Positions 1,470 through 63,450 of a DNA stretch of 64,000 bases are shown here, in pieces. Made by a program: the position numbers and the translations under genes. The notes below the pieces were generated by a model, which was given only the letters and a program-made list of their open reading frames with translations, had not been told where the DNA came from and made no database searches. The DNA lies in the NCBI RefSeq assembly GCF_036669915.1, contig NC_089322.1, forward strand, positions 17,080,219 through 17,144,218, given 5' to 3'. Numbering within the stretch: position 1 is the stretch's first letter; every line of letters begins with the position of its first letter. Source of the stretch: Pocillopora verrucosa. Its lineage: Eukaryota; Cnidaria; Anthozoa; Scleractinia; Pocilloporidae.

Positions 1470-4400
1470 TTACCTTACTAATTCCATTGCTTCCTTCCAG
1501 AGAATTCGGACATCCAGAAAACAACAACGGAGGGGAAGGGAGAGTTGGTGCAATTCTGTAGACATCTCTACCACCAATGCTGAATATCTGGGGGCTGCTA
1601 CACGTACACATTTTCAGCTTACATCAGGTGTTGTGTTGTTTATGTTTAAGCCGCCGTGAATAACAATCTGTTCTTCTCTTTCAAACTGGACTTGTAACTA
1701 CATAGAAATGTTAGGAACAATGTTTAAAGACATTTTCTCTAGAGGAGGACAGCGAAAAACAAAGAACTGTTCTTACCTGAAGCTTGATTTTCAGTGACAC
1801 TTGGCGAATTTCCCCTTTCAGCCAACTCGTAAACCGAGAGATTTTCTACAGAGCGATTTTCTTCACTTTCATGAATGGTATGATCCTGAAAAAGCGGCAA
1901 CCGAGCACTGGGTAAGTAGCTACCTCAGACCTACGCACCTCAACATGTTGAGTAAACAGAACAACTTTCAACCGAGCGCTCAGAGAAACTCAGGATTGCA
2001 TTGGTTTTGCTTTGCTTCACTTAAGGATTGAATCAAAAAAGGCGCTTAGTGTTCAACTCATCAGATACGAAACCAAAACCAAACGTGGTCGTTTGCGCTT
2101 TTTTTAATTCAATCTGCGCTTCATGTAGTTTGTTTATAATGGTTCGATAAGAGGAGCTCAGCTAAGATTAGTCTAAATACTCAGTTCAAACTATACAAAA
2201 CTCATTTATAGCCCGACCAACATAGTACAAGTGCAACATATACAGTAAACGTTTTAGCAGGCAAACAATAAAAAGAATGTACAGACACAACTAACTTACC
2301 TCGCTTATGGACTGCTGACCTTCGTCTGTTTAAAGAAAATAGAACAATTTTTTTTAATGATTTATGAGCTTGTTTAACAGAGACTGTTCTTAAAACTTCA
2401 CCATTTTAGTCGGAAACTTGAAAATAAACACTCTACGACCATTTAAAACCTCATGTAGCCTCAATGGTGATAAATCCTTGCCTTGCCGTCTGATAATATG
2501 AAAGACAAAACAAAGCAAAGGTGGAATGGAAAAAGGCGAGTGGCCTGGTTCCGACTGGTTTTTCATTAACTGAGAAGATGGCTTGAGTTTTTAAGGCCAT
2601 TCCTGGAGTTTATGGTTAAAGCTAAACCGATGCATTCCGTAGTTACTTTCAACAAGCAATTGAAAATTATGTTATTAACAAACCTCCCGCATCTACGTCT
2701 CTCTCGGCCGCAACACGGCTGCAAAAAGAAAAAACAAGTACACAAGTCTAAATTGTGTCGGTCCTCAAAGTAAAGCAACACAACACATTCAAATACCACC
2801 CCTCCCCTAACCCAACATTAACCCTTTCTTGATATCAGTTGACCGTTGATGGGTTAGGGGAGGGGTAGGTGACCAATTGCTTAGATGCTAACATTGATCA
2901 TAAATACTTACACTAAATGACCCATCCGACGAGCAAGGAACAGTAACAGGATCGAGACAAGAATGACTAATAACCCCGCAAGGCTTCCTGGGATCACAGC
3001 TGTCACTATGATCGAGTTGCTGGTGCGACCACGAGACCTTGGGGTCGATTCTTTCTGGAAAAAAGTACGTTACAATACCATCACGTAACATCTTCGAGGA
3101 GAATCTTTAATATTAAACTTCATGATAATATAACAGCAGAGTTAAGCTAAGTCTGACGATCTATCAGAGAAAAAAAATATGTGTATTTTTAACCCCGTTT
3201 TTTCTACCTCATGTGGGGATAAAACTGATAAATAAATGAATAAATAAATAAAAATGGAAAGAGGGATATTTAGTCAGTGAGAGAAACTTTTCCTTCCATC
3301 TCGCAAAAGTGGTTTGCAAGTAAGTTCCCATTTCAATACTTATACATTATCCATTAAAATGTTGGTCAGAAAAAAAAAATTGTTTGCCCTAGTATAGGGT
3401 GTTACTTAGGAGTAACACAAACTTTTTTTTCAACCATATAGTAGTTTTCGAAATTATATCTTTAGACTTTTATGACGAACAGGGTAGCTTTTTCTTCGTC
3501 ATTTCTTTGACTGAAAGTCCACCATTCATAGGGAGAATTTTTATGAAATAAATGACTTTTTTTTCTCGAAATATCTCTAACAGTAAGCCTTCATCTGGAA
3601 GGTCATACGTTGAAATTCAGCCACGAAACGATAAGGAAATTGATAACAAAAAAATTAACCATCAACCACATCAATTCCCAGAGCGCTTCCTTACCCTTCG
3701 TACGTTAGGCAGAATTGGTGTGCTGTTCATTTCGATGCTACCTTTGGCGTCAAAAATCGATTTAGACGCAACAATCTTAGTCATCGTCTCCGTTTTAGAA
3801 TTTGAAGTCATTTGTCGGGAATCAAACCTCTCGTCGACAAATAGAGAAGGGGAGAAGATAATTATATGAGCAGTTGGTTTTGGCGTGAGTAAAGTTTTGC
3901 CAAATGAAGTAATCAACGACATTCCCTTGACAGATAGTGGAGCAACTCCTTCGAGAGTGGGTGCGGTGTAGAGGGGCATGGTTTGTCTTGCTTCAATTGA
4001 AAGCCTTTCCTCAGCAGAAGTTGATACTGTAGACGTGGAGCTAACACTTCGAGTTGGTGTAATTAAATAGGATTCCACTGGTAAGAAGTCGTCATGAGTT
4101 TCAGATGGTTTGAATGTAGAAGTATGCGCTGCTTGTGCTGGTGTGAAATGTGTCCCATAAAGTGAACCTATGGATGGGAATGAAAAAAAAAGCCAAGTCC
4201 ATAAAACGATTGTAAAGAGGACACTATAGTTAATTCTATTTATACTGTAAAATATAAATATAGGCTACTTTCAATAAAGAGTGTAAAGGACACAAAGCAA
4301 TCCGGGATATATTATTTTGCCGTAGCACGCCTTTTCATTGGTCTAGTCAGAACCAATCAGATACAAAGCTTAAACTTATCCTGACTTCATAAGATCCGCG

Positions 4401-7243
4401 CTTGAAGTCGTTGACGAGAGTTTAGTTTGAATTTACATCGTCTTCACTTTTCCTTCTTGATTTGCTGCCGTAATTATTTCGAGTTTAGTTTTTCGACATT
4501 CACTCTAAAGTCGTTCTTTTTTAATGAAAAGTAGACTCAACTTACACCTTTCGGATCCTCTGAGCTTGAACAGCAAACAAGGTTTCCCAACGGGCGGAAG
4601 ACACGTCAAACCAAGTTTTATAACGCGGCCGTTGAGGAAAGTAGAGAAATTTGAAGCACCCACCTGAGAAATAAAAACGTGAAATGTTTGTGTAGATTCT
4701 TTTTCTTTACTAAAATATTCACCTAGAGTTAGCTTTTCGGCTTTTTCTTTTTTGCGGTGTGGCCAAAAGCTAAGAAAAAAAATACATTCAACATAACCGC
4801 AAAACTTTATCTTTTGATCATGATGCATCAGCCTCAATCGGCCTCTGCACGAAGACCGTGTTCCTTTAGGTAAATATGGTAAGATAGATGTTTGAAAAAA
4901 TTCCCACTAAAGTAATGTTTCTTATAAAAAGTTGTTTTGTGATTGATGTAACATTTACAGTGCAGACGTTTCGCTATAACAAAATCATCGCAGCTTTTTC
5001 TCGGCATAAACAGCCCAAATAGCTTAGTCAAGAGAACATAAACAGTTTATATATTGCCTGTGAATATATGAAAGTCATATATTTGAACTGCGGTTAAAGA
5101 CGTGAATATGAAAGCGATCTTCGCAATAATGAACACTACTTAAGCAGTAGTGAAAAGAAGGCCTGAAAAAAAAATTCAGGCCTGAATTTTTCTTCAGGCC
5201 TTCTTTTCACTACCGCTTAAGTAGTGTTCATTACTGCGAAGATCGCTTTCATATTCAAGTTTATATACTCTTGCTTCCCTCCAAGTGTCAGATTAGTAAA
5301 ATCGACATTGGTATCGAGGTACTTGCCTTAAAACTGTAACTGTCTGTAAACCTTCCGTGTAAACTAAATTTGTTCAAAACGCTCATGTCGTCGATTGGAC
5401 GCCATATTCCACAGTCCAGGTACTCTGAAGTTGACGCATCAATTGAACAGTTTCCACTCGGTAAAAAAACCGCCTTTTCCTCGCCGTCCTGCAGAATTCT
5501 TAATGGATCGTTTTCGCGCTCCATTGCAAAGAGAAATCCGCAGTCTGTTGAAAGATGGATTGGTTCCACAAAGTAGAGCCACTTATACGCGTTTTCTTAA
5601 ATTATTAACGGTGGAGAGTGGGGCGGGGGAGCTGTATCACTCTAAACGATAATTTGTATGAGAGGGGTGGTCAGGTGGAAGATCGAGGTTGAGGAAAAGA
5701 ACAACCTTTGAACGATGTCCATCTTATTTCCATCAGCATAAGCCTCTCCCGCCTATTATATACCGTCTTACACAATTCAACTCAGTGAATTTCTCTGTCA
5801 GTCATAGAAATTACCATCATTTCACGGCCCTACACTACCTTTCAACTCTTTTATCGAAAACAAGCGGTGCAATCTTCATACAGCTCGGTCCAAATAGGAA
5901 ATAAGATTTTTAAATTTTAACATCGATTTCGACAATGGACATGAGCATGTGCCCTTAATAACAATGAGTAGATCGTTTTAGAGTAAACGATGGAAAGCAT
6001 TTTCGGTGAAAAAGTATTTCAAGTCAGTGAAGGATTTTTAGGTCTTAGATTAAGACTCGGCAGATGTCGTTACGAGATTTTCTTTGAGGAAATTTTTCAA
6101 ACTACAATGAAGACTTTATCAATACAAACTTCAAATGTGTCAATAGAGTACAACAAATCGTTAGAAAGTTGGAATTCTTCGGTAGGTTTGAAGGGAGATA
6201 TATGGTCTCAAACAGAGCAAGGAACTAATGACGCACAACGTAATGAAAATCGTTCCAACAGTTATTGGCTCTTCAGATTCCAGTTGATCGACGACTAATC
6301 ATTCAAAATGTTTTAATTACAGTGCCAAAGAGGGAAACTGATTTTCTTGATCAAAGCTACAAAAACTGGTAGACCATGAACGTAGATAATTCGAAGATCA
6401 AGGACTTTTTACTTATCGGTGATTCAAATGTCTCTAATTTCCACACTTTAGAAAGTTAAATTTCTAAACATTCCGAAATAGCTAGTTCCCTTTTAAACAT
6501 ATCTTAAGAAATGTTTAAAGGTTCTTTCGTGTTCTTTAAGCCAAGTTTATCTCATTTTCTTTTCTTTTCTGAAGAGACAATATCAACATAGTTATTCAAT
6601 ATCTTAAAACTGCATTATTGGGGTCGAGAATAGCTTTTGTGACGTAATTCCTATAAATTCGGTAGTGCTTATTTGCATTATTAAACCTCCTGCTCAGAAT
6701 GTTATCATAATTTATAGGGATTTGATATCATATCATCATTATGTGGCCAGGGTTCTATATTCCAGATATTTTAAGAAAATAAATTGTATTTTTGAGGCTC
6801 CTTAAACTCTCATGGAAGCTTCAGAGATGAAAAGCGAAACTTAGACGGTATAAAATTCCATTCCCTCTTGAATTTCTTGAATTAAAAAAAATTACACAGC
6901 GGTTTTTCCATTTACCTTCTCCCTCGCGAAACTCTTCATTTTCAACACAAGTCCATTCACCATCAAACTGGCTAAAAGTTGAAGCTTCTTTTGTGCATTT
7001 ACACATCTGTAAACACCGACTAGTTCTGTCTTGATCAACAGCATCAAATTCATCGCACTCAAACGAATCGTCATCTTTTCCAACAGTATTCAACCGAATT
7101 TTGTCCGTCATCTTGAAAAATGTCTCATTGCTCATATAATTTCCGTAAGTTCTATCAATCACCACAATTCCTGTTGTCATACATCTTCTGCTCGTTGCTA
7201 TTGCCACAGTACCAAAAAAAATTACTAAATAGGCTGCTAACAT
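1470..7243 (-). CDS. R1: type I membrane receptor, CxC module + two-exon Cys domain + Tyr tail
   Basis: Predicted exons on the minus strand: 6916-7243, 5327-5544, 4546-4663, 3695-4167, 2912-3054, 2684-2718, 2300-2325, 1777-1885 and a tentative last exon 1470-1597 (about 525 residues). Every junction keeps frame. Exon 1 holds a signal peptide (start MLAAYLVIFFG; an in-frame Met lies 24 codons upstream) and a Cys-rich module ending in a CxC pair. Exons 2-3 form the domain shared with R3-R6 (NGRVIKLGLTC, CLLFK). Exon 4 is a Ser/Thr-rich stalk. Exon 5 encodes the membrane helix (SLAGLLVILVSILLLFLARR). The tail has YELA in exon 8 and YSAL in the tentative last exon. Exon 2 appears to use a GC donor (AAG|GCAAGT), the only choice keeping phase. 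The 3' end is uncertain: a good donor overlaps the proposed stop. No function is known; a surface receptor is inferred. Confidence 0.72.
2794..2898. mobile_element. Palindromic MITE, truncated relative
   Basis: Shares the CACCCCTCCCCTAAC / GTTAGGGGAGGGGTAGGT arms and the GATGCTAACATTGATCA right end with the element at 42135; its left end is lost. It lies beside the R1 helix exon. Confidence 0.5.
5104..5256. repeat. Long hairpin (fold-back) repeat
   Basis: Two nearly identical arms of about 60 bases in inverted order (GAATATGAAAGCGATCTTCG...GGCCTGAA) with a short A-rich centre. Related sequence recurs at 15047-15137. R1 intron 2. Confidence 0.75.
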
Positions 7244-8677: not shown

Positions 8678-11600
8678 TTAATTATCTTTAATGAGAGGTT
8701 GATAAAATGATCGTGTTGACTTCTGTAAGGGTTGATAACCGTTAACTTCAGCGATTCCCGCCACGGGCGTGCAGCCACCTCCTGGAGTGACTACGGGAGC
8801 CTGGTACTCATTATTGGGGCTCTCTATAGAACAGTAAGAAGGCCCTTCTGTTTTAGGTCTTTCGGTCGCTTCGTCTTTTTTGTTTTGATAAGCAGTAGTG
8901 TAACTATAGCAGTATTCGTCGTCATTTTCCAAAGCATTTTTACCAGCGTTGTCTGCAAGTCTCTCAGCATTACGATCTTCCGTCATGGTTTCGTAATTTG
9001 CCTCATTTTCTCGTGCTCCAGGCGGCGGGAAAATCGTCGGGCGCACGCCTCGAAAAACAGGTTCGTCATAATCGGAATCAGATCGTAAAGGATCGGAAGG
9101 CCGTTCGGAAGGAGCCGACAAAGCGGATTTCCCATTTGTATCTGTCGTGTTAAGGTCCTCTAACACATGATACAATGGCGAAGTTGGCGAGCTGGGAATG
9201 GTCGTCGAGTAAAGCATTTCAGGAGTATCTATATGAAAGGGGAAAAAAACAGAGGTGAATTACCAGAAAACTTCTAAATTTGATCGGAAACAGACTTAAC
9301 TAATATGAAGACATTATTGTAGCTTAGTCTTCAGTTGTAGTCTCGTACCTCATTCGAGCGAAGTCTGGGAAAGATTGAAATCTCAGCCGACAGAAGTAAA
9401 GGTTTGAACGAGCGGACAGTATCGAAGAACTATGCTCTAATTTCGGGTAAATTCCTATCCTTTCAACGGGCTAATAACCTTCTTTTGCATAATGCCGATG
9501 CTTCGTTAACTAAATTTCAGGCTAAGGGTTGATTAAAACTGTCCGCAATTTCTTATAGACCGGTTCTTAATGTACATGGAAGAAGCACTTTTTACCTTCA
9601 GCAACATCATGATTTGAAAATCTGATATTTTCAGCTGCATTTGTAGAAAGGTACAACGGATTTCATAACATGAATTTTCGTCTTTCAAACATATATAGCT
9701 TAACAGTGTACAGCTTCAAAAATCATTTAGAAACTTCTCTAAGAGACTCTTGATGTTTTTTACTTTGCCACTCCTTTAACTAGAGAAAGTAGTCTTATGT
9801 TTCAATATTTTTTGTTTCAATGCAGTAAATAAAGTCTTTTGTTTCAATGTTTCAAGCTTCAAAAACCATTTACAAACTTCTATATGAGACTCCTGTTGTT
9901 TTACTTTGCCACTCCCTTAGCTAAGGGAAAGCAGTCTTTTGTTTCAATGACAAAATACAATAAATGTGTTACCTAAACAAGGCATACCTGGCTCTTTAAC
10001 TTGATTCAGACTTCCACGACTGGATCTTTTAGAAAAAATGATAACATGACAGCACTTCTAATTCACTAACTTGTGAATGGCATAACTGATAAAATGCTAA
10101 AAATGACAGACGTAATAGACAAATGGTTGCTCGTTTGATTGGTGGTTCGATCTTTTAAATGGACAGGTGGTTTCATTCGCCAATGGAACTGAATTTGATC
10201 ATGAAACTGGAATGAAAATTTTGTCTTTATTTTACATGTTCACTCTGGGAACTTTTGAGTTGCTTGTTGGTCGAGTGGAAAGTTGAGTACTTTGTTGAAT
10301 GACCGATTGATTAATTGCTTGATTAATTGACATTTCACGACTCAGAATAACTTATTGATAGACTACAGAAACTGTAATGCTGCGTCAGTGCGGGTATTAC
10401 AAGAAAATTTGTTTTTATCCTCTGAGTTGATAATGTAAATTGGCAACCGTAAAGAATTTCTAAAGCTGCCGTTTCCAGCGTTTGCCCGCCGTCATAGCGA
10501 ATTGCTGGGACGAATACTAGAAACTTCAGCTTTATAACCTCTTTGTAGATCAAGGCCAATTTATAATATCAACTCAGTTGATAAAACTAATACATCGTAT
10601 ATTATATTAAAGTTCAGATATAACGCACGCTGTCATTGGTTGAAACAACGTGCTCTATATTATCAAAGTACAGAACATAGAGCAAGAGAGCTAAAGCGTC
10701 CGATCATTTCTTGGACTTCTCTCTAGCTTTTGTTACTTAGGAAGCGACTAGAGCACTCACACTTCTCTCGTGCTCTAGCCCTCTCCTCCGTGCTTTACAA
10801 CAGAACAGAGCACAGTCAAGGCTTCTCCATTTGTTAAATAAACTGACTAAAACATGAGAGATACACGTACGTATGAATAGATGGACGGACGGATGGATAG
10901 ATTGATTAATTTTGTACTGAATTAATGGAAAGCATCTGTGCAAAGAAGAAACAAATGATGACGGAATGAAAAAGGAAAATATCGTCCTCTTGGAACAACA
11001 AAAAATATTTATTACTTACGAACGCCTTCGTCTCCGAAACCAAAGCAATAAAATTCCAAGTACAGCAACAAAAGCCACGCAACCCATCGTAATGACTAAC
11101 ACCAACATAGTTTTTGATCCACTCGTTTCAGTGGCACCTTTGTCCTGAAAGATCAATACAGCAACAAAATAAATGATCGGAATACTTCACTACGAAAATG
11201 AAATTCTTCATGCAACGCTAAAAATACTTAATGCGTATGGGAACGACTCTGTTTTTAAATCTGATACTATCGAATGCAATCTTGATTACCTGTGACGTCT
11301 CGTTTACTATTCGTCTTGTGTCTGGCATGGCACTCGTGTATTCTACAAAAAAAAATATCCAAAATATTGTCATCATGAACTCTGTTTTACTTTGGAGTAA
11401 AATGAATCCTCACAACCCTTTCCTACATTACATAAAAAATAAAGATGGGACTGGACTTGGAATTCCTTCGGATTCAAACTCTTGGTACCGCAAGAACGTA
11501 ATTCGTATTCAGATCTTATTTCCTTATTTACATTCGTTGCCACTGCTAGTCCTCTTCGAAGCCGTTCCTTGTGGTGTAACGCAACTTCCAAATCCCAAAG

Positions 11601-14600
11601 AACGGCGGCGAAGGAAACAACTTCGTTAGATTTTATTCGTTATCTGTAGAAAGGTTGGCCTGCTTTGCAATCGTTCTTTACGTTGTCACACAACACTCCC
11701 CCTGTCTCTGGGCAGAGCGTTACGTGACATTCGAAAGAATAGCTAGGAAGGAGACTATAAAAATCAAGGGTACGTGCCCCCCCTTCCCTCACCTGTTTGC
11801 ACCGTAGTTCTCTCCTCGTTTGGAGTCGAGTTTGTTATTGTTGATGTTGTTTGAGGCGTGGTACTGATATCCTTTGCTGTCGTTGTTATTTCCACAGTAG
11901 TGGTAGCCGAGGTCAAAGCTGATACCGTTGTATACCTTGTTGCGTTATGGACATATGCAGTTGTTGGTACTGTTGTAGGACTTGAGGGGCAGCATTTACA
12001 AACACAAGTTTTCCTACAGTTCTTTACAAGATCAGCAGCAATGGACGACGTCCAACAGTTCCCCACATTACTTTTACAGTACTGGTCATTGTAAATGTTG
12101 ACACACGCTAAGATGTGAAATCAATTCATAAAAAAGTCGTCGGCAACCCCTTTTTTGACATACATCTTTCGTCTCGAAATGAGCATTTTAGCCTAAAATC
12201 GCTCTTAAACCTAATGACGTTCTTTGCTGAAAATTCCTTCCCCCTCCCCCATCAAGTCACGTTGACGCTGCATTTTGTTCGAATATGTACCACCTTTTTT
12301 CATTTTCACGTCGAAATCATTTCGATAAAAATGCTTTGGGAATACTTTCTTAATATGATCCACCAGTCCACTCCTTGAAGGCGAGTACCTTGTGGGTGTA
12401 ATTTTCCTTTCTGACGTAAGCATCCATAAGGCCATCTACAACTATTATCATTACTATTTCTATTATCGTTATTCTTGCCATCTTTGTCATTATTACTGCC
12501 ATTACCATCATCATCATCGTTATTGTTATGGTTATTGTTATCATAACTTGTCACTTTTTTGAGGAGGTCACGTTTACCTTAGGGCCCTTAATTGCATTGT
12601 ACAAAACGGGTACTCATTTATTAGGCCATGGCAAACGCGTTACCACAACAACAACCTTTAGAAAGGCCTGACTCACCCGGTACTTCAGAACACACTTTGC
12701 AGCTCACCGGACAATTATCAAGCATCCACAGAGGATTTTTTGAACACTCCCCGATACCAGCCCAATCGGAACAAGAGTTATGGTTGTCTGTACAAGCACC
12801 TGAAACACCATAAATGTTATCAATTCAAATCGGCCAAAATATATAAGGCTCACTCCTCGATACAAAAACGAAGAAAGGTTTGTCCGATAGAGGGTCTTAC
12901 ATCAGTGCAATTTCTTACTTGCATTTGGGGGTGTGCGCTATTTCTTTTCTTTCTTTCTTTCTTTTTTTACCTGACAAGGTACGTCACGCAACGTTCTATG
13001 AGGAGAATTCGAGAAGAGGGCGTGTTGCGTGACTAGCCGAGTCCAAAGACGAGAGAGGGGCGGTGTCGTTCGTACGCCATTTCGTTCGTCTCCAGAGGAA
13101 AGCGTACTCCGACATCCGTCAGAAGGAAGTCATCTCGGGTAGATTTCCGATTACGAAATCCGAGCTCGCCCGATGTTGTCTTCCGTGATGAAGGCCCTAT
13201 TTACCATATTAGACCCGCAAAACAGAGTAGAAACGAAACACGTGCTTCGTTTTCGCCCATGACTTCGTATTAGCCCTAAGATATTTGCTTTTTTTTTTCG
13301 TTGTTAACCTTTATTACAGACTTCACAAAATTTCTGCGATGCCTCCTTTTCGCGGATGGCCGATTACAACTACAACATAGTAACACCTCCACGAAATCTG
13401 TCAAAACTGAAAAAAAACTGATCTCCGAACTTCCCGTTAATTGTTTATTAAGATAATCATCGAAGTGAAATATATCTATGTAGTAATTTTTATCTATGTA
13501 GAAGTAAGCTAAAAGAATTTTTAAAATGTATTCATGAGAAACTGTTTCTTGTAGATCTTTCCCTAAGTACGCTCTTGCGTTTAGAATTGAAAATCCTCAA
13601 ATAATATTGTAAAAAATATTATCGTAGAATATTTTCAATGATGATCATGGCACAACGCAGATAGAGAAAATGTAATAGGTGAGACAAGTCACGGATTATC
13701 CTTGTCGACAAAAGTAATATCGCCTGCTACATTATATTCAAACTTAATCTCCGTCCAATCGAGGTAATGTACAATTTTTTAATCAATTACCATGTTAGAA
13801 ATAACAATATATCGCTTAAACTCTGAACGTAACTGCGTTAAATTTATTTCATCTGAAATCCAGAAGATTTCCGGTGTTTTAAAATCCTCCTTTCGACAGA
13901 TTTCGTGATGATGTCATTACGTTGTAGTTGTGATCGGCCATCCGTGAAAAGGAGGCGTCAAATGTATTTTGTGGAATCTGTCATATAGAGTAGCAACGGA
14001 AAAAAATGCAAATATCTTAACGCTAATACAAAGTCCTTTCTACTCTATTTTGCGGCTCTTAAATGCGAAATAGGGCCTTCATGACAACATCAGGCGAGCT
14101 CGGATTTCGTAATCGGAAATCTACCCGAGATGACCTCCTTCTAACGGATGTCGAAGTACGCTTTCCGTCTCCAGAGGCTAAGAGCTTGTAACAGTCTACT
14201 GTGACGGAGTTTAAATGAGTGAATACGGAGTATAACAACAACTATACTGCAACGTATCTTTTCTAAACTATCTATCCTTTATAATAAAGTTCGGATATAA
14301 CGCGCGCTGTCATTGGTTGAAAGAGCGTGCTCTATGAGAGTATAGAGCATAGAACGGAGCTAAAGCTGTCACGCCATCTGCCAATCGTACTATGTTCGAC
14401 CTTTTCCGGGACTTCTTTTTAGCTTTTTCCCGATAATTGAAAGTGAAATTTCGGAACTGAAGCGAGCCGGCAAGTAGCAACAGAAGAATCAAACAAAGGT
14501 TTGTAAATATACCAGGCGCCGTAATTTACATTATTAAAATGTGAGCAGATACGAAAATCCTCAAAGAAAGTGGGAAGAAACACTCGACTACGTCTCGTGT

Positions 14601-24359: not shown

Positions 24360-24819
24360 CTTCCCTTTTTTTTTGCAATTTGGTAAAAAAAGAAAAACTC
24401 TAGATCTCAATTCCATTTTTTTCAAGTTAACTTGGGGTATTTATTTTTTTAAACAAATTCTTACAATAACAAAAACTATTCATAAATTCTTCTGAGGTAT
24501 GAATACTGTATTTTACAGGGCAAAATTATTTCGATTTGGGTGATAACCATTGATAAGTACTAAAACAATTAGGAGCAAAATTACTTTTTGCTTCATAACC
24601 TACAGAATTGTAGCCATTCAAAAAGTTTCAGTACAAAAATAGTGTTCTTGAATTCTGCTTGGCAGCAAATGTCTACATCCTCTGTTACAAAAATACACAT
24701 TTTAAAATACTTTATAAAATATTTCACTTGTAACTTGCCCTGTGACACTACATATCATGCAATTGCACTGTCAGAAAGAGATATAAATTTTAATTACAAA
24801 GTAGTGTAGAGAATTGAGT

Positions 24820-45745: not shown

Positions 45746-45776
<31 letters not shown>

Positions 45777-48700
45777 CATGTATGTATGTATGTATGTTTT
45801 GCATGTTGTCACTTTACTGCTCGTGGCATGTTCGATCCCAGATCTTGCGCGGTCAAAAACCCCACGGCTCCGCGCGCGACCAAAACACTGTGACGTAGAA
45901 AACTGTGAAAACCGCGAAAACTGCAACTAATTGTGGAAAAAGGGAAAATTCGAGAAGAAAGGGCAAACGTATTGTGTTGCCGGAGCGCCAAATGATGTTA
46001 GCTTCGAGAATAATACACATATACCGGGTATTTCTATACACTCCTTTCCAAAGGATTTAACTGTATCACTATGGCCAAACTGGACGCGTTTCACACGTCG
46101 ACATCGAGGAGATTTCACTCTTCATTGTCGTCTTAATATGCTCTGTAACGGCCTTGAAGACGGCTGTTACGAACACATACCACAAGTCAAATCAGGGAAA
46201 GATAACCAATGAATTCAGCTAAAAATAATTCTGATTAAGGGGCCTGTTCCCACGCCGTACACGATTGCTTAACATCCTTTTCGGCTGACATTTCGCGAGC
46301 GAAGAATGGTGAGTTCCTTATTGTTGTTTATTCCACGCGCTTGAGATTTACTCATACTCCTTGTCTTTCCACATAACTACATTTGCGCTTTTCTTATCGT
46401 ATGAAAATCAATGGTAGTTTCCATCTTATTTTAAAAACACAAATACATCGTTTGTTATAAAAGAGCTGACCAATATCCTGTAGCGTGAACAGTACGAAAC
46501 CTCTAGCGGATACAAGCTCGAAGGGGCCGTGTATTCTCTTAGCCTAGACGGTTACAGCGATATTCACTTTGACTTTTGTTTTGATTTGATGTTCACTTTA
46601 TTTTTTATTTCGCCGTGAATTGCCTTTGGATTTCAGTTAAATTTTGAAATGATTTTTACTTTGATAATGCAATTACTTTTGCTTTTAAATTTGCTTGCAA
46701 CTTCATTTTACTTTCAATCGTTCTTTTCCTTTGTTTTGCAGTCACGTTCCACTTTACTTTCAGTTTTGATTTATTTTTTTCTTTTATTTTTTTATTAAAT
46801 CTTTGAAAAATTGTAAAATTTTGAGTGGCAGTCCTCGGCCACCATAGACTTGTAAGTGCCAACTGAGGGTTTTCATGATTTTCTACGTCATCACCCCTAA
46901 TTCGTTACCAGTCTACGGGACACTTAATAGACAAAATAACAGCACCTTAAGGGCCCGAAAAACCGAGTTTTAACTTGAAATTTTCCTTTTTGCGGAATTG
47001 GTTTGTAAATATGATAAGCTGAATATTTACGCAAAAAATTCGTGTCATTAGCACTTAAGTACAGTTTTTTATCCCATATGTACTCGCTAAATGACACAAC
47101 TGTATAATTTTATTTACTTAAAACCGTTTAAGTCCCAAGATCTCATTAGTAATTCTCCGTACTGTCTGCCATGTAGTTCTTGTGATGTTAGTTTGGAGAG
47201 TTTGATATTAGATCAACCAATAATATTTTTCTTTACTCTCATCACTTGTCTGCTTGATACCATTTTAATATTGTGACAAGAAATTCTGTCCTGGTCACTC
47301 ATGGGAGTCAAAGGGTTAATTACTAACTTCTAGGCTCCATTATAATCATGGTTTCATAATTTCAGTGTACCCTCTTCACATTTAATACTAACAGAACTAT
47401 CAACTGTTCCTAACACAGAAAACTCACCTCTGATGTTTCACTATAATTTGGTTCCCCTGTGCTAACCGAAGATTTTGGAATCCCAGTATTTACTACTTGA
47501 TTAGAAATTTCTCCTGAATTGACTGGCAAGGAGCTTTCCAGTTCAGCTGTTGATGTTGACAGCAGAATTGGTCCAGATGAATGTAAGGCCAGCATTGTTT
47601 GAAGTGACCTGGTTTCAATGTGTGTTGATACAAATGATGAAAATTTGCCTGTGTGAGTTGCGGTACTTTGTGTGGTAGCACCCAATGAAGGAGAAGGTGA
47701 TGGTGGCGATGATGATTGTGGCATTGGTGACAATGATGATGATTGTGGCATTGGTGACAATGAGGATGTTTGTGTTGATTGTGGTAATTGAAGAGATGGT
47801 GAAGACAAATATGATGATGATGGAGTGTGAGAACTCGAAGCAGTTGGAACAGTATGTACTGAACTTGTCTTTGATGGGGCATAATCTGAGAAAGGCAGAG
47901 GGAACATTTGACAGTTTGACCATCCCTGTTTACATTGATTTTGGATTCTATTAATTATAGATAATGAAATTTAAATGCCGGTAATATTGATAGTCTTTGT
48001 TAAAAGGGAAGTGGTTGAATAATATTACTCTAAATTGCTCTGTACAGCATGTTTAGTCTTCTACTCATTCCTACATGTGTACTAGTAGATATGAACCCTC
48101 ATTTGTCTGCTTTAATTTATGATTGGCTGTTGTGGCTGTTTGTTTTTACAAAATAATCCATCCTTAAGAAATCATTTCATCCCTACTGGTTCTCTTAATG
48201 TTTACTTTATGAAGTCCAGTATGAATGACCCTTTTAACATTACAGATGTACCAAAAAGGGTCATAATAAACAATCTTTATCTAATTCCATACTGTAATGT
48301 ACCCAAAACGCAACCATAACTCCCAAACAACTTCTTACATAAAGCTGCCTGAGCTCATTTGATGTTCATTTGCTCTGGTGAATGGCTAACACTTGAAATG
48401 TCAGCTTTTAAACTCTTTACAGTGGCCAATTTACATTATCAACTCAGTTGATAATACTATATTACCCTGTTGAGCTTGTTTGACCTGTGTACTGCTGTAA
48501 AGCAGTTAAAATTTCCTGAGCTATAACATAAAAATATTGTAACACTTAATTGAGACAATTATATGTTAATCCTCATATAATCCATTACCTAAAATAATCA
48601 AAACCATGATATCACCCCTAAGTTCTGAATACAAATATTCTTTAAATCATTGGCTTTACTTTTAAAGCAACTCACATGTCACAGTCCCTAATGCCTTGAA

Positions 48701-52583: not shown

Positions 52584-53358
52584 CGGTATTGTCACTACAC
52601 CCATTCACTTCAATCAACTCTAGACATCTGTACTCACGTGTGTTATACTCTTCGGGATATATTCGTAAGAATCTTGTTTCAAAAGTTCCTTGGAAGTAGT
52701 CATATTTTATGGTGTCTTTTTCACTATTTCCAGTAAACCTCTGAAGGTGGACATTAAATGAAACACTGAAGAAATATAAAATAAAAAATGAACATGATTT
52801 GATATATCCTCGCAATGAAAAAATACTCTATTAAGTAAATATATGTGAGTTATAGGAAGAGTCAAATTATTTCAAATGAAAATAGTTGAACTCAACTCCC
52901 ATTTATATACAAATTCATTAAATATTTTAAATGGCCCATTAACAATTCAATTCAACTTCCAAAGAAAGGAATTGATCATCTCGTTGAGTATAATGCCCCT
53001 GGAAGAAATAATATTCACATGTAAGATACTTAGTTAAAACTTCAGTTCCTTTTTTTAAACCATTTTAATCTTTGTAATCAAACCATGTTACACCATAACA
53101 ACTGTGTTTCATCTTAAATGTTTTAATATAATTAGTCAATGATCTTTGGTATTCTTGAGCTGTAAGGGCTGAGACAATATTCCTGACCTCAAGTAGGTCA
53201 ATCTCAAAAAACATGTTGATACAATAAGAGCACCAAGCCTTATAATTATTCAGTTTTCCTTCCGATGGACCAAAGCCTGGAAAACTGTCAATGGAACTTA
53301 GCTGGGAATCATTAATTTTCTTGGTACTCTCTAAACCAAGTGCTTCTGAGCAATCCAC
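52584..53358 (-). pseudogene. F5/8 type C (discoidin) module, probably decayed
   Basis: Two minus-strand blocks encode the two halves of a discoidin domain. The first (53065-53358) reads DCSEALGLES, then WCSYC and a TWFDYKD end; the second (52584-52740) reads RFTGNSEKD, FETRFLRIYPEEYN and NGC. The second half has a good acceptor and a phase-1 donor (CCG|GTGAGT), exactly like the matching exon of R6. The first half shows no acceptor at the expected place and runs into TAA just after the YKD, where a donor would be expected. No signal peptide exon that joins in frame was found upstream. It is therefore most likely a relic of an R6-like gene, though the second exon alone could still splice onto R5 exon 2 in frame. 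Confidence 0.65.
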
Positions 53359-56300
53359 AAAAGCCCAAAGGTGACAAATTAATTCAGTATGATTAGGACT
53401 CCGTAACTTGAGAGATATTTAATCACTATGCAATTGGGAGTAACAAATAATGATTGGTAGAGATAATTCTTAGAGGTGGTATTCTTGTAAGGGACCTAAC
53501 TATGTTACCTCCCACAATCATTGGTGTAATTTAGCAAGAGGACGGGAACGTCAGCCGGTTGCAGATACCGAAAAAAATCGAGCCCCGTATTCAATAGCAG
53601 GGTTACTAGAGATCCTTTCAGGAAAATGTGCAACAAACCGAAATAGTTAATAACAAATTCCAGCCTGGAAATATACATTGATATTTTAGAAAAAACTCTG
53701 AAGAGTGAGAGGACAAGAACTGAACGCACTTTGATAATCTCTCCTCACTCATTTACTATTAAATAATGTTTACTTCCTTCCAAACAGAGATTTCTCTATA
53801 CTTGCTGTATCAGTACAACTTCCTGTTTGCGGGAAGCTAAGAAGGTAGGAGTGCAGGCCTTACATGAACAGCTACTTGTTGCAATATTGGTCACCTAAGC
53901 AGAGGTGTTCTGACAGACATCTAAGGGGCATCTGTAGCCAGTTTTGTTAATAATATTGAATACGATGCTATCGTACGTTCCTTCTTCTCCCGGTAATAAC
54001 ATACTCAGTGACGATGCCGTCTGCACCCAAACTGGCTTGTATCGGAGAGGCTGTACAGTTGCAAGACAAGACACCAAAAACAAAGACATGTTTCTTCGCG
54101 CAAATTATGAGCTACATCTTACTTCCGATTACAAGAAATATAACTGAGCGTGTTTTTGACCGCGATATGAGCGCACACTGAAGTTCAGACCTCTTCAGGG
54201 GCCAGTTAGATTAATAAACCTTTCCAACTTCCTTTACAAACACCTTATGACGTCAAAAAGTCCGTGGATACTCCCACGAAGGATCAGAAAAATCATGCTC
54301 GGAAATTTGAGCATAATGCTTTTGAGTGCCACCCCAAAAAACATGGCATCGTGGTGAAAATAAGGATCAAAATTTTTCCTTTTGCTCAACTCAATAATTC
54401 AAATTAATAGCTTTTAAGAGCCTCTGAACCCCTCTCCCTCCCCTCCCCAATTACTATCACCGACAGGTAAAACTTGTCAAGAATAGAAAGCTTACCATTT
54501 TACTGAACCAAATTCCTAAAGTGCAAGCGAGAAAGCAGGTTCACAGTTGACACAACTCAGGCTATAGAATTCCTCTCTTGTTGAACTGTAATATCAAAGT
54601 AACTCTTTAGGCGTTTAGTCATAATGCAGACTGATTATGCTCGATATTCTGACCATAGCATTATGCCAAAGTTATGCCACCATACCAGTAATATTACTTC
54701 CATACCTGACCCTACTCCCGTGGAAAAAAAAATGTTTGTTGTACTTCACTGGTTCGAACGGAATGGTTTGAGAAACTTCACATCAATTAGTAAGAAAATT
54801 GGGAAAAGATAGGGGCTTGAAACAGAAAAGCTCTGGCTCATTGTAAAACACCGAGCAGTATGAAGAATTTGGAGATGACTCCGCAACCAGAAGTGTATGT
54901 TTACCAACATTAGTTGTGTTGTCATCGGAGTGGAAACACGGAATGGCTTGCGATCAGCAAATGATTAAATCTTGCTTATGTCGGGTTTACACGGATGCGG
55001 TTGTGACTTTCATGAAATAATTCCTGAGCTACAACATCTGAGGACAGGATGCTTCGTTTTTACCCTGTCAAATTCAGATACATTGTTCTCTGCATGATTC
55101 GTCCTACCACCGTTACAACTTCCTTTCTGTTCAGTTCCGCGGGAAATCTTATCCATGCAAACAGACTTTAAATGTTTTGAAAGACTTGAACTACTGATTC
55201 CCTGAGGCGAACGATATCGGAAAGAGTGCAGCAAAAGCTGAGGCTGTGGTTCTGGAGGCAGTCAACAGACGTTTGGTGGCTGTAATGATTCCTATGACAC
55301 CCAAGAATACTTGTGGCATGCTCCGCGATTTGAGCAATCCAGTTTTCCAGAGCTCTGGCACTAATAATCTATCAGTGCTAGACCTTTGCCAGGCCTCTCG
55401 CGCACTCATATTTTCCCACAAGAAAAGTGACGCTTGCGCCAAAGCGCTAATAATGACCCAGCGAGCAAGCTAGGGTAAAAAGGAACTCAAAGTCAGTTGG
55501 CTCAATGGAAAACCCTCATCAAAAACTTATTTATTCATTTATTTTAAAAATTGAAAGATCGATCAAAGAATATATTTGTGACTCCTCCACGAGGACGTCT
55601 CTCTATAATAATTTCTTAAAAGTTACCTAAATTATTAAAAGTTTCATCCTATTGAGATAACGAAACTCAGCTGAGACGCAATTGACTGCTTATTTCCACA
55701 TATTATCAAGCCTCTTATTAATATATCTGAGTAGGTGCGCTATGATTGGTGAATGTATATGTGACTGTATAGCCCGCAAAATTCAAAAGTTTTTTTGATT
55801 TGCATCTTCTTGATATAATAAAAAAAATGTTATTAACTTCGTTTCTCGGTCTGTACTGTAAGTTACAGAACCTCGTTTTACCGCTCGGATTTAAGGCCTG
55901 CGCGCGATAAAAAACGCGGTCCACAACTTCCAGTACGAACCTCGGTTATTACGTAGTGCAAGTAGATAACATAGGCTGGCATGTTGGCCGCCAGAAGTAA
56001 AGGCGTAGCAACAAAGGTATGTGATAGTTGATCTTAATAATTCTATACTCTACAGCAAAAGATTTAATTAACCGTTAAAAGTAAACTTGACGAATTTCAA
56101 CCGTTAGTCGTATCTAAAGTTTAAACGTAAAAATATTTCTGATCTACGATGCCATTTTGAGTTAACCGTTAGCCGTAATATGACGAAAACTTTAACTGTT
56201 CGCCGTAAAAGCCATCGCTCTATTGAGACCCTCTAATACAAATACAATTCCAACGAGGCTTGGTCAAAATAATCCCTGTTTCTACACTTGGCATACGTTC

Positions 56301-56616: not shown

Positions 56617-56654
56617 CACTGTAATTTCTTTGGCTAAGCTATAAAGCTTACAAC

Positions 56655-59600
56655 TTAAGTTACTGTTAAAGGCTGGTACATGTCATCGCCATTAGCGCCT
56701 CTCAGGGCCTCATACACTGACCCGTTGTTGACCTTGCTTTGTTCATAAGGTAAATTTAACTCCAGAGTTTGCTCATAGGATGGGTTGTTACGGCTACCGG
56801 GAGAACAGGGCTCTCTTGGAGCTGCATACTCTGCCTCACTACTATTTGGTCCAGCATCTGAATCTGGCCCCTCAAGTACATTATATAGGCTTTCATTATT
56901 TGCACCATTTTCAAAGGGCCCACGATCAGTATCAGGGCCATTATCTAGGACATTATAGAGTGGTTCCTGTTGGTTCTGTTTGGGGCCAGGCCTCTCAAGC
57001 ACATTATACAAGTATTCATCATTTGCACTATCTTCGAGGGGTCTACCATTAGTATCGAGGCCATTACCTAGGACATTATAAAGAGGTTCCTGTTGGTCTT
57101 GCCTAGGATCGGGCCCCTCAAACACATTATATAAAGGGTTTTCCTCTTGGAGCACCTTACAGCTCCTACCTGCAGGGGACCTTTCAAGTACATTATACAG
57201 GGAGCCATCTACATTTTCTTGCGCAATATCAGGCTTTTCAAGGGAGTTATAGACAGGCTCTGTCATTGCACTTGATTGTCCCGTTGGTTGCCCTGTGCCA
57301 TGATGTCCTTTCTTCAGGGCTTGGTACCCTGATGTCTGCGAAACGTTTTCGTCCAGGCTTTGGTAAACGCGGTTGTCATATCGGTTTACTTCAGGTGCGC
57401 TGTAAATCGTTCCTCCATACATTGGTTCTGGCGAGGATAATGGGGAAGCAAGGGCAAATTCAGTTCAAAACATCACAATGCTTCATATAAATTCTACCAT
57501 CATTAAGTACTCTCTTGCACTTAGAATGACCCAATAACTCCCAAGATCTGATTGTTAATCCTCCCCTCTAGCTGCTACATATTTCCTTGTAAAATTAGTC
57601 ACGAGAATTTGGTGTTAGATCAAGATAATAACCTCTAGTTCAAGAATTTTGAGTATTCTCATTACCCGTTTGCTGGATAATGTATAAATAGTGTAGGGAG
57701 AACTTAAATGTTAATTACCTGTGGGAGTTAAGGGTTAAAACATAGAAGAAGGCTTAGTCATGGGCTTTTACTTTTACTCACCACTGTCTTGGACAATGTC
57801 CTGGTAAGTTGGTTGATTCTCTTGATCACTGAAAGGTTTGACATCTTTTCCCGTTTTTGTTCTTACTGGGATTTCAAACTGTGAATTTCCATACACGTTT
57901 TCCTGCACTGAAATTAGATAAAATGGTTAATGTTAGATTAAATGATCACACGACAATCGGAAGATTTTCATTATTTCAATATTAGTTTCAATGAATTATA
58001 ATTCACGGCTGTTGTGTAGTTCTGTCACGCACTACTCTTTGGGAGAGAGAGTATTGTGTGACGCAGACAAACAACGAGCAACACGCTCTAGAAGAAAGTG
58101 GGATGAGTGGCGTGACCAAACAACAAAAAGAGGGCGTATTGTGTGACGTGACCGGACGACATACAAAATAATTTGAGTGAAAGAGTCTTGTGTAACGTGG
58201 TCAAACAACATACAGAGTGCTCTGGGAGTTGTGTTGTGCGGCGAGACCAAATAAAATGCAAAATGCTTAAGAAGGAAGCGTGTTGTGTGACGTGACCCAA
58301 CAACGTCCAACATGCTCCCGAAGAAAGCGAGATGTGTGACGTTCCTTAACAAATTCATTATATGCCTTTACATGCTGCGCTCTGTGGAACAAGGCGTGAT
58401 ATGTGTCTTGAAATTTGCAGTGCGCATGTTAAGAGACGTGGCCAAACAATGTGCAAAAAGGGTCTGGAAGAAAGAGTGTCGTGTGAAAAAACCAAGAAAA
58501 CATCAGCTGATATTCTCTTGGAGGAGACTAAATAACGGCTGCAAGGGAGAACATACTTTGCTGTGACTGGGGTCTGAATGACACCAACTCATATTCTTTT
58601 CGGAACTGTTGATTGATTAAGTAAAACATGTTAGTGGCTTCATATGGTATTTATTGCAAGACAAATTGCTGCACTATTCAAGTTAGATAACTGCTAAGGA
58701 AAAGATCATTTACCTGTTGACGATGTTCCTTGCTGACTTTTTTTCCTACGTGAGAAATTCCAATACAAAATACATTTAGAATGCAGAGTTGTTCAGTTGT
58801 AACGTACTTAAAATGTTTCTGTTTTAGTAAAGTCTATGAAAAATCAATCTTGTTCAACACAAGGGAAAAAACAGTTGTGAAGTCTGGAGATTCAAAAATA
58901 TAGAGAGAGTATGTAGAATACAAATACTGATGTTATAGCACAATCATTATTAGATTTATTATCATAAATTAATAGCACCATCTGAGAGCCATTTAATCTA
59001 AGAATGGTTGTACACGCACATGCACAAGCATATGTAGTTGATCAAACTTACAATTTTCTCCTCTTGCAAAACACAACAAGAACAATAAGGATAATTGCAA
59101 ACACAACTGCACATGCCACAGCAACACCAATCAAAACTCTGGATCCACTGTTGCTCCCACTCGTTCTTGCATCTTTATCACTAGTGCCTCCCACAGGTTC
59201 TGTCACTAAAGACATCTGCAAGGAATATTAAACAATTATTCATCGAAGCTGAGGAAAATAATTGTTTTAGTACATACCACACAAATACGAAAACCTAGTT
59301 TACTTCTTTCAATATATCGAAAAATGGTCGCAAATGAAACTTTGTCTCTTCCGCTCCTCGAAGGTAAATGATACTTCCTATTCAATTCCGAACTAGCCAA
59401 TCAGTGGGGGCGAGAAACAGTATTCATTTGAGTGGCATATACCATATCCACCAATAGCCACCTCCACTTCGGTGACTAGTTGTTAATCGTTGTTGGTCTA
59501 CTAAATTTATGAATTGCATAACCCTTGGCTTATAATTATTTATGAAATGACTGAGATACGTAGAAAGACCTGATTGATCAAAAACCTCTCGTTTACCTGA

Positions 59601-62600
59601 TTGCAACAGTAAACCCATAAGAAATTGAAACGTTGCAAGTTTATTTAATAAAAGTAATAAACCGCACTTTCTACCGGTTAACCGGCGTAATGTCCCACTT
59701 GGGATGTTGCGGGAACACGAGAAAATTTTGTAAATCACTCGCCTCCGATTCTTGATTAACAAACTTTTCTAGTGTTCTCCCAACATGCTACGATAGAAAC
59801 CGATAGAAAATGCGGTCTACTGCTTAAAATGCAACTCCATACAACCAGTATACCATAAAAATTCTGTATAAAATCTAATCTGTTCATAAGCTCCTAATAT
59901 TACGCAGACAAAAAAGCCGCGCAAATTAACTAAATGAGACAAACCAGTGATAGGTATTTGGTATTTCTTTGTGTTGCAGACAATTTTTCTATAGTTACAG
60001 TAACTGCGCACCCATTTTACAACCTATACCATTTTCAATGAGGATTTTTAAGACTATTTTTGAAGTTCTCACCCCCCTCACAAATGGATATAGTAACTCC
60101 GACAATTAAAAAATCAACTGCTTCGTAAACACAAATAGTAACTCCAACTGTAAGGCACTCCAAACAGAAGCCGCTGAAGAAGACTCTTGAAAGACATAAA
60201 CCCTGGGCTTATTTTTGGTTCAAATATTTATGGCAACTTCTTTTAGCTTTAAGCATTTCTTCGCCCGCTGGAAAATATATAGCCTCAAGCAAGACGTCTG
60301 TAAGGGTTATAACACTGTAATTACTAGTGCCATGCCCCCGGCAAACTTCTCCCTGACTTGTCTTAAATCTTCCCACGGGCTGAAAAACGCGCGTCCAATA
60401 GCGTTTATCATAAGAACCTGCGTGCGGGCGAAGAAACTCTACACTAGTTAGGTTTATATTTCTCTTCGTACTAGAGGAACTGTCCTCTTGTACGAAAACT
60501 ACTACTGTCCGAAAATTTTCTATTTTCATCTACAAAAAATTCATCAACCACCTCAAAAGAACAAACAGTACTGAATATTTAACAGCCTTTTGATAAAGAA
60601 GACTATATCCAGAACAAACCTTGGAAGATTTTGTTGGTTCTGTAAAAACAGTCGCTGTGGTCACTGGAGAAATATACGGTGTTGTCTTTGGCATAGTGCT
60701 TAGATCCACTGAAAAGTAAGAGAAACGTTATGTTATAACAATGGTAAAAAATTATTGACTATCGTTTTTACTTTGCCATATTTGTTACTGTAACATAGCA
60801 CTGCATTCCCCTTCAAGTGTTAGTCAGCCCCCACCAGTAATTAACAAGATATCTAGCTAAAAAATGATTTGCTGCCAACAATTTGGTGTCAGCCATGGTA
60901 ACCAAAAAGGTCTAGGTTAGAGCCCAGCTGGCCAGGATCATCAGGGTGGCATTCTAGGGGGAAGACACTTAACCATCACAAAGCGTCTCTCTTTCCACAG
61001 CTGTACAAAATACTGCAAGGGTAGCACTGCTGCAACAGGAAGATGATCTAGTACTCCAACTTGCCTCTTGCTACCAGCAACTCTTACTAACCAAGTTTGC
61101 AGGAGCTCAGTATTGTACGTTACAGACCAAGTTTTAACTACTTAAATTTATGGTCCAGGCGCAAAAAGAAAATAAGGTTAGTATGATATTTATTATGTCT
61201 TTGGGTTCAAATTGAGGAGGAAGATTTCAATTTAAACAAACTTTTATAGTTAGTGGTCTGTACAGCGAAACATGGCCTGCCAAACTGACCAATCATAGCG
61301 CACATACAAACTGAGAGATAATGAAAAACTGTATTTTAATGTTGAGCTGCGCAAACTATACCAACATACAGGTTACGTGGTTAGATCCTTTACCGCACTC
61401 TTTCCTGGTAATAAATATAATTGTAAATTGGAAATAATACCACTTAGAATTATTACTTACCTCAAACATTCAATAATTCTAAATTTTAAAATACAGCCAG
61501 TCTACTGTTTTCATACTCTTAACACCTCAGATTAAAAATCACCACATTCTTAAAAATTTCAAGAAAAACGCACTCACATGTGATTTTTCCTGAGGTCTTG
61601 AAAACCAGACAAGCAGTTTTATTTGGTTTAGATGCAGGAGCTGAATAACTACAAGTAACCTTTACTTGCACAATTCTTCCCAAGAAGTCCTTTTTGGTGG
61701 TATTTGCCCACTACAGAAATGAAGCAAAATGAACATAATATAAATCCAGTGATCAAGGGTCTGGAGCATGATAATGACAGTTATAGGGATAGGGTTAGGC
61801 CCGAAATTGAAAATACTGGAATCAGTCTAAAAAAAAATTTTTAGCCACAGCTAACCTTACCTTCATTCAATTACCACAAAAAAACTAACCCAGCAATTAA
61901 ATACTATTTATAACAGGCATCTTTCTAATTTTGAAGACTCTCCATACTTTTTCCACAATTAGCCCTCAAATCACCACACTTTGTAGAGAGGACACTCATA
62001 TTGCAAAAGGTGGCATTTTAGGCCTGTTTGGTAAGGGGACTTTATAATGCCCATACTCAGAAGTGATTAACCTGTAACGTCTACCTGTAATACCCACACA
62101 TAAGCCAGAAAACAGGTAATGAGAATCTTTGAACTTCTCAGGTAGAAGTTGTTGTCTTAATCTTACACCAAATTCTTGTAACTAACTTGCAAGGAAATGT
62201 GTTTGCAGCTAGAGTGGAGAATTAACAATAAGATCTTGGGAGTTGAAGGGTTAAAACAGCTCTATCATTGCAATTTTTGACGACACTTTGCTTTCCATGA
62301 AATGAGTTGCAGACTGCTGGGCAGTGAATTCCGGTTAGGGGCTGTGAGTCACAGGCCATAATGGCTGCTGGACTGCTGGCTTGCATGCATTATCATTTTA
62401 AAAACTTCAGGTACAGAACCTTGAAGACTAGATTGCTTTGTGTTTTTTCCACTTTGAACATTTCTGGGTTTATCCCCAGCCACTTGTTTTCCAGTTGATA
62501 GTTGTAGTATGCTGCACTTCCAGGAACAACTTGACAGCTTTGATAGGTATTAGCTGAGACAATATTCACTTGCCCTTCATTTGCTAGGTTGAGGGATTTC

Positions 62601-63450
62601 AGGAAAAAATCCCACTCAAAGAAACGGGAGCAAACTGCAAAAAAAAAAGCCCCATTCAAGCATATCAACCATGTATGCTTAGTAATAAAAAGGTTAAGCC
62701 TTATAGTAGATGATAGAGAGGCTGCCCCACGGAAATTTGGAGGAAAACAACAAAAAGGCTGAACATGGAGGAGTAACCAACAGAAATCAAAAGTTGTTTT
62801 CTCTAGCCAAAACTTAAAGTGCATAGATGCTCAAAGAGGTCATTGACTTACTAACTTAACCTTATAAGGTTTGGTGAAGGTCGTTGTAAATTGAACTATC
62901 CTCCTTTGAAAGTTTTTGCTGTATCTCATTGTATTGTTATCTTTAAGTACGTCACCCCCAAGGCAAAGCCCAAGACTGACTTGGCTGTTCATATCTAAAA
63001 TAATTCTAATTTATATTATTACCAAAACATGATTTGTGTATGAATATGGCTGCCTATTAAGCCTCATGTTAATTTGGAGATCTTTAATAATATTGAATAC
63101 CTTTCTCTGTTAGAATGCTGTTGTTATGATGCATTTGAAAGAGTCAGAAGTTATGTCTTGTTTATAGGATCCATGTTAGACATGTGCAAAGCAGAACAGT
63201 TGGTGAGTAATCAATTTGAAGCTCCTTATGTTATTAATTTGTTCACTGATATTCCATGACTTATACAGTTACTGATGCAAATTTAAATTCACTCACCAGC
63301 ATTATCATTACATCCATACACTTCAACTCTGAGACATTTGAAACCACGCCTGTTATACTTTTTAGGATATATTCTCAGAAATCTTGTTTCAAAAGACCCT
63401 TTAAAGTTGTTGTATTTCACGCTGTCTGTATCTTTATTTCCAGTAAATGT
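56655..63450 (-). CDS. R6 (5' partial): F5/8C-bearing membrane receptor with YNVL-repeat tail
   Basis: Exons on the minus strand: 63297-63450, 62420-62634, 61578-61710, 60620-60708, 59052-59215, 58714-58745, 57782-57907, 56655-57427; 561 residues visible, all phases joining. The first visible exon is the C-terminal half of an F5/8 type C (discoidin) domain (FETRFLRIYPKKYN, VEVYGC), entered in phase 0, so the domain's first half and the signal peptide lie beyond the window. It is followed by the shared domain (LGRIVQVKVTC, CLVFK), a short Thr/Pro stalk of about 30 residues, the helix (VVFAIILIVLVVFCKRR) and the tail: VYGN, PTYQDI, YQSL, YQAL, YNSL, one YNVF and six YNVL, then YEQT, YEAL and a terminal MYQPL. 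Within the tail a unit of about 41 residues is duplicated. F5/8C domains usually bind glycans or lipids; ligand here unknown. The exon 2 donor (AAG|GTTCTG) is weak. Confidence 0.8.
57529..57738 (+). mobile_element. TTAA MITE, subtype B
   Basis: Between the two last exons of R6. Right end GTGGGAGTTAAGGGTTAA; left end eroded. Confidence 0.6.
58005..58545. repeat. Minisatellite-like array inside a fold-back element
   Basis: About ten imperfect units of 36-50 bases, many containing AAACAAC, GAAGAAAG and GTGTGACGTGACC. The outer ends (GGCTGTTGTGTAGTTCTGTC and TAACGGCTGCAAGGG) resemble the ends of the element at 36088. R6 intron between the juxtamembrane exons. Confidence 0.6.
60885..61075 (+). 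mobile_element. SINE copy in R6 intron
   Basis: Contains a B-box-like GGTTAGAGCCC, then GACACTTAACCATCACA and GTCTCTCTTTCCAC with GCTGTACAAAATACTGC, the order seen in the same tRNA-derived SINE. It is antisense to R6. Confidence 0.45.
62049..62254 (-). mobile_element. TTAA MITE, subtype B
   Basis: Inverted copy; right end TCTTGGGAGTTGAAGGGTTAA minus its last base is typical. R6 intron between the two exons of the shared domain. Confidence 0.5.

Follow-up and report, generated by a model that had tools for sequence, protein, structure and literature searches.

In the stony coral Pocillopora verrucosa, six loci (g1 to g6) and a broken relative (g7) are clustered in the 64,000 nucleotides of contig NC_089322.1 analysed here (the window, a single haplotype), and their predicted genes belong for the most part to a single stony-coral family of type I receptors with one membrane pass. 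The original prediction, made from the letters of this DNA, was of six similar receptors, and five of them (g1 and g3 to g6) do form one type I receptor family with a common intron-phase chain, but g2 has a ShK ectodomain. The family ectodomain is modular as read from sequence, with a Sha_B_N domain, F5/8C in the g6-type genes and a second conserved domain, D2. For g4 and g5, the description as diversified heads joined to a common tyrosine tail is well grounded in the sequences compared. Overall we consider it slightly better than an even chance that this is a stony-coral receptor family signalling via the docking of SH2 and PTB proteins, with g3 as a conserved and g4 and g5 as diversified members.

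Gene models were assembled by hand from open frames, splice-site scores, paralog profiles and mini-exon scans. The phase chain 1-0-1-0-2-1-1 is identical in g3, g4 and g5, and g1 and g6 agree with it as far as they are chained. The first exon, which ends in phase 1, holds a hydrophobic start with the first domain, D1; two exons (1-0 and 0-1) then encode D2, one the stalk (1-0) and one the membrane helix (0-2). After these come a mini-exon (2-1; 26-44 bases), an exon for the juxtamembrane part (1-1) and, last, the main tail exon. Chains from ATG to stop are complete for g3, g4 and g5; the 5' end of g6 and the 3' end of g1 are missing. That the family is real, with full chains for g3 to g5, most of g6 and the domain content given here, is established at the level of predicted genes. 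As had been proposed, a helix with a basic stop-transfer is present at all six loci; a scan flagged it at g1, g2, g4, g5 and g6 (and flagged also one unlikely frame, 47618-47929), and at g3 it is plain in the translation. The proposed Ser/Thr stalk is there too, Cys-free and with 29-41% Ser+Thr at the five loci measured (g1 and g3 to g6), while the second ShK exon of g2 carries that of g2. A signal peptide and Cys-rich ectodomain, expected at all six, were seen in g1, g3, g4 and g5, whose first exons begin with a hydrophobic stretch and encode a Cys-rich domain (signal peptides being assigned by eye from translations), but not at g2, with its ShK, nor at g6, whose start was not found in the window.

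The expected joining of ectodomain, helix and tail is borne out for g4 and g3 by proteins from elsewhere. The protein given by the g4 chain matches P0002, an uncharacterized P. verrucosa protein (isoform X4), at 100% in all four segments compared; they differ only by three residues where the helix exon meets the mini-exon, P0002 having a different splice donor there. The 545-aa g3 model is 99% covered by P0008, P0009 and P0010, encoded on contigs of 2.2-2.7 kb. Contigs of this size, holding the whole listed protein, account for 8 of the 17 matches in the g5 and g3 searches (P0011 among them starts inside D1), and because g3 spans 6.5 kb these homologs must come from spliced sequences, from which we infer that the contigs are transcripts. 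All junctions checked are GT-AG except for GC donors at g1 5327 and g4 35466 (both on the minus strand), which makes two GC-AG introns within one gene family. That the cluster is in part artefact or decay, with some loci pseudogenes or misjoined exons and two or three working receptors, seems highly improbable. The GC donors in g1 and g4, the broken g7, the want of complete chains or outside support for g1 and g2 (neither served as query in the large protein search) and the absence of exact P. verrucosa g3 and g5 proteins from the g5 and g3 search matches would all speak for it, but P0002 reads across the g4 GC junction in the same way and homologs match g3, g4, g5 and g6.

D1 was considered as a novel Cys-rich module and this was ruled out by its match to the Pfam domain Sha_B_N (PF23328), found in single exons of g3 (35.1 bits), g4 (30.5) and g5 (34.6) against a curated cut-off of 24.4. 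Three of the four first exons found are thus above the cut-off, g1 being the exception with no match. One ectodomain common to all six loci is ruled out for g2, in which ShK (PF01549) scores 35.5 bits in one stretch (cut-off 20.9) and a second copy is read from the cysteine pattern; the two ShK exons stand in place of the common ectodomain, and the stalk, helix and tail-exon phases of g2 are those of the family. F5/8C (PF00754) is found in the g6-type proteins P0006 and P0007 (best E 8e-21), and the half domain of g6 within the window reaches 24.5 bits, below the 28.2 cut-off. D2 gave weak rows only against Pfam (PNPOx_2, E 0.12, g3 residues 114-158) and best E values of 0.25 and 0.62 by sequence against the PDB. 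In two AlphaFold models the ectodomains are folded and the tails disordered, and D2 is drawn as an Ig-like sandwich; a Foldseek search with the first model found nothing with an E value of 0.001 or lower, its top row being a chain of the mouse oocyte lattice. Against the earlier statement that no Ig-like domain is seen, D2 is likely Ig-like, by fold prediction only.

Tail motif counts were tested against 2000 shuffles per tail, using for g2 the main tail exon only. YxxPhi sites number 12 in g4 (shuffle mean 2.6), 12 in g5 (3.0) and 11 in g6 (3.2), counts that none of 2000 shuffles reaches, and 5 in both g3 (1.7, p 0.015) and g2 (1.5, p 0.011). Many YxxL/V sites had been claimed for all the tails, and this stands for g2 to g6 but not for g1, where the 13 post-helix residues chained hold no Tyr and pieces further on, down to about 1470, could not be joined in phase. 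NPxY, claimed also, occurs twice each in g4, g5 and g6, above chance (p 0.004-0.009), but not in the g3 tail or the g2 tail exon. Immunoreceptor tyrosine-based inhibitory motifs (ITIM, [SILV]xYxx[ILV]) were observed 3 times in g4 (0.62 expected, p 0.029), 2 in g5 (0.69, p 0.15), 4 in g6 (0.70, p 0.0035) and once each in g3 (0.42) and g2 (0.28). Pairs of the activating type (ITAM, YxxL/I x6-12 YxxL/I), the number of which is inflated by YxxPhi density alone, occur twice each in g4, g5 and g6 (p 0.001-0.006) and once each in g3 and g2 (p about 0.04). Grb2-type, PI3K-type, YxxP and PxxP motifs show no enrichment over shuffles in any tail tested. When unphosphorylated, YxxPhi and NPxY double as clathrin-adaptor sorting signals, and the F5/8C of g6-type genes could bind glycans or lipids, as would suit endocytic or phagocytic receptors for the uptake of particles or symbionts. 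This we think quite improbable, given that 11-12 repeats per tail in g4 to g6 are in our judgement far above the sorting need, that g3 and the g2 tail exon are without NPxY and that several invariant g3 tyrosines (YLLP, YSEP, YAKP) are not YxxPhi.

Homologs were sought among about 5.8 billion proteins with g5, g3 and the g4 ectodomain as queries, the g5 search giving scores only for candidates with most words in common. The g5 query had seven matches, including one from P. damicornis, one from P. verrucosa and four from Stylophora pistillata; g3 had ten, including Oculina patagonica, Montipora capricornis and Acropora digitifera; and the g4 ectodomain had five, none beyond those of the other two. 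The coral homologs P0001-P0006, P0012, P0014 and P0016 have the domain order, stalk, helix and tail described here, and are named 'uncharacterized protein' or 'Shavenoid isoform B-like', names that carry no function. The cluster, mechanism and tail homogenisation are undescribed in these names. An undescribed coral receptor family, as was originally suggested, thus survives in respect of the phosphotyrosine-type tails and the uninformative names, but its D1 is a known Pfam domain.

In g3 and its ten homologs 8 of the 11 tail tyrosines are found in 11/11 sequences, compared with 44 of 202 other tail columns at 10/11 or more (Fisher p 7e-4, only indicative as the sequences are related). g3 is a conserved member whose ligand is probably fixed. 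One of its sites, DEAGYAKV, we take to resemble a hemITAM, and the conserved sites include the YxxP-type GYLLP and YDYAKP. The latter bear on a different view, that these receptors act in adhesion or on the cytoskeleton, in the manner of Drosophila Shavenoid with its role in hair formation; they would organise protrusions or contacts, their tyrosines recruiting adaptors such as Crk or Nck (the binding preference that we assume for such sites), and have no immune role. The Sha_B_N domain and the keeping of g3 across the scleractinians found are in keeping with this, but the likeness between Shavenoid and the coral family is, as far as compared, of that domain only, YxxP is not enriched over shuffles, and a broken copy and the conflict between ectodomain and tail set out below are more typical of recognition families. 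An adhesion or cytoskeletal role for the family is on balance rather unlikely.

The reading as receptors that dock SH2 and PTB proteins draws further on the history of g4 and g5, which are 37% identical in the ectodomain, 68% in the stalk, 87% around the helix and 88% in the tail. Synonymous divergence (dS) is 1.90 in D1 and D2 (near saturation), 0.33 in the stalk, 0.13 in helix and tail and 0.11 in the tail exon. Similarly, g4 and P. damicornis P0001 are 99% identical in the tail and 56% in the ectodomain, and Stylophora P0003 and P0004, both listed on contigs 243,170 long, share an identical 372-residue helix-tail part (100%) with ectodomains 50% identical, these two ectodomains on one helix-tail part being perhaps the result of alternative splicing or recent duplication. 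In a tree of seven ectodomains g5 falls with Stylophora P0005, and grouping within genera is rejected (p 6e-8); the g4-like ectodomains have low support (44-46) among themselves. The helix-to-juxtamembrane part of the same seven sequences, in contrast, groups by genus, and across-genus grouping is rejected (p 3e-4). The main tail exon was excluded from these trees as P0005 (Stylophora LOC111318990) has none, stopping just after the juxtamembrane exon at either a contig end or the end of a tail-less form. At the DNA level g4 and g5 are 93-99% identical beyond the stop codon and 71-84% in other aligned blocks (repeats aside), and the tract of identity falls off on both sides with an unaligned gap downstream. 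The dS contrast, the tree conflict and the bounded tract together point to conversion of the tail with old ectodomains kept, and helix-tail homogenisation by gene conversion is probably the best explanation of the g4/g5 pattern. Ectodomain lineages about 50% alike (g4, P0001, P0003, P0004) would coexist across genera, with the helix-tail part homogenised within each. Whether g4 has another intact ectodomain set next to it was examined by tblastn, and none was seen in the window.

Several points weigh against this overall picture. The conversion argument comes from seven sequences with its tree test confined to the helix-to-juxtamembrane part, and the g5 and P0005 ectodomains (64%) are in step with their helix part (76%). 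Positive selection in the g4-g5 ectodomain shows no sign (dN/dS 0.34, with dS near saturation). The PLYNVL/PVYNVL repeats are mostly without an ITIM residue at -2, and the g1 tail is without an established chain. The diversified ectodomains of the original prediction, which the g4/g5 figures support, are not found in g3-type proteins, where mean identity is 0.49 in the ectodomain and 0.54 in the tail (two rows without the D1 start lower the former); ectodomain diversification is by these alignments not general, g3 conserving both halves alike. Also g2, and possibly g1, falls outside the full receptor description.

Overall the ectodomain/tail conflict and the conserved tail tyrosines fit recognition receptors. 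Ligand binding would cluster the receptors and a Src-type kinase would phosphorylate the tail tyrosines, making the tail a multivalent platform on which SH2 proteins, and PTB proteins at the NPxY sites, would dock. With old ectodomain lineages on a homogenised helix-tail part, different binding heads would feed one output, the likeliest use being surface recognition of cells or microbes. An allorecognition role of the family is possible. The stronger proposal, of g4 and g5 as variable recognition receptors and possibly allodeterminants, parallel to Hydractinia Alr but built from Sha_B_N as the head plus a cryptic Ig-like domain, we regard as distinctly unlikely.

Feature coordinates in the window (SP, signal peptide; exons in order of transcription).
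Feature	Position	Strand	Exons and remarks
g1	2300..7243	-	7243-6916 (SP + D1-like), 5544-5327 + 4663-4546 (D2), 4167-3695 (stalk), 3054-2912 (helix), 2325-2300 (candidate mini-exon); GC donor at 5327
g2	8678..12799	-	12799-12677, 12107-11793 (ShK; second with Ser/Thr stalk), 11342-11290, 11144-11020 (helix), 9228-8678 (Tyr tail)
g3, complete chain	16272..22776	+	16272-16608, 18253-18482, 19333-19465, 20264-20298, 20572-20831 (helix), 21567-21610, 21708-21893, 22364-22776; Sha_B_N; homologs over 99% of model
g4, complete chain	24984..35790	-	35790-35466 (GC donor), 31733-31504, 29111-28988, 28381-27942, 27655-27480, 27222-27185, 26389-26267 (NPxY), 25750-24984 (YNVL tail); equals P0002
g5, complete chain	40575..50569	-	50569-50224, 49316-49099, 48811-48676, 47885-47428, 44710-44538, 43447-43410, 43056-42934 (NPxY), 41356-40575 (YNVL tail); P0001 66% over 99%
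g6, 5' end not found	56655..63450	-	63450-63297 (F5/8C second half), 62634-62420 + 61710-61578 (D2), 60708-60620 (stalk), 59215-59052 (helix), 58745-58714, 57907-57782, 57427-56655 (YNVL tail); relatives P0006, P0007
g7, broken relative upstream of g5	52585..54077	-	D1 with in-frame stop, F5/8C pieces with stop
Identity tract (g4)	24606..25848	-	91.6% to 41451-40195 (g5); tail exon + 3' flank
108-nt repeat copies	1018, 18011, 18701, 21020, 23248, 24255, 26979, 47213, 49898, 57633		

Two acceptors in these chains are weak, those of the small stalk exon of g3 (-1.9) and of the second ShK exon of g2 (-0.7). For g2 a signal exon and the intervening tail exons were sought in the window and gave no convincing chain. 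Neither a signal peptide nor a first domain was found in the window for g6, the 5' end of which probably lies beyond position 64000. After the D1 and F5/8C remnants of g7 neither D2, helix nor tail was found, and such a broken copy suggests birth and death of family members. Elsewhere, a GIY-YIG domain fragment (37567-37938, minus strand; 23.3 bits, cut-off 22.6) is perhaps a retroelement remnant, the 108-nt dispersed repeat occurs ten times, mainly within introns or intergenic DNA, with copies 61-91% like the reference one, and a near-perfect palindrome at 5095-5265 has two 79-nt arms, 92% complementary, spaced by 13 nt.

Among the papers searched as text, no publication joins 'shavenoid' and 'cnidaria', and of the 17 that mention 'shavenoid' none carries a coral title. 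Self/non-self discrimination is precise in stony corals according to the available part of PMC12018476, which names no coral receptor for it, and in the main text of PMC10236652 the words 'allorecognition', 'phosphotyrosine' and 'discoidin' are absent. The exon coordinates, conserved tail tyrosines and ectodomain/tail conflict reported here make this coral question directly testable. As to downstream partners, excerpts of PMC5978004 have Syk-type kinases with ITAM-binding SH2 domains tracking Bcl10/CARD-CC, and Bcl10 reported in cnidarians among others. The nearest known systems are likened here by description and not by sequence, from parts of the papers cited. Hydractinia has 40 Alr and Alr-like genes on chromosome 3, with Alr1 and Alr2 highly polymorphic (PMC11876637), and motifs of the ITIM/ITAM type have been reported in Hydractinia candidates as well as in Botryllus FcoR proteins (PMC12065747). 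The Alr genes are like the coral family in being clustered cnidarian genes with reported tyrosine motifs and, possibly, in an Ig-like domain (PMC11876637, PMC12065747), but the coral family has a Sha_B_N head. The FcoR proteins are likewise type I and clustered, with long tails bearing ITIM, hemITAM or YxxI/L/V, whereas their ectodomains are Ig and sushi (PMC12065747). If the coral reading is true, corals would join Hydractinia and Botryllus as the third animal lineage known for unrelated receptor heads that have converged on tails with tyrosine motifs.

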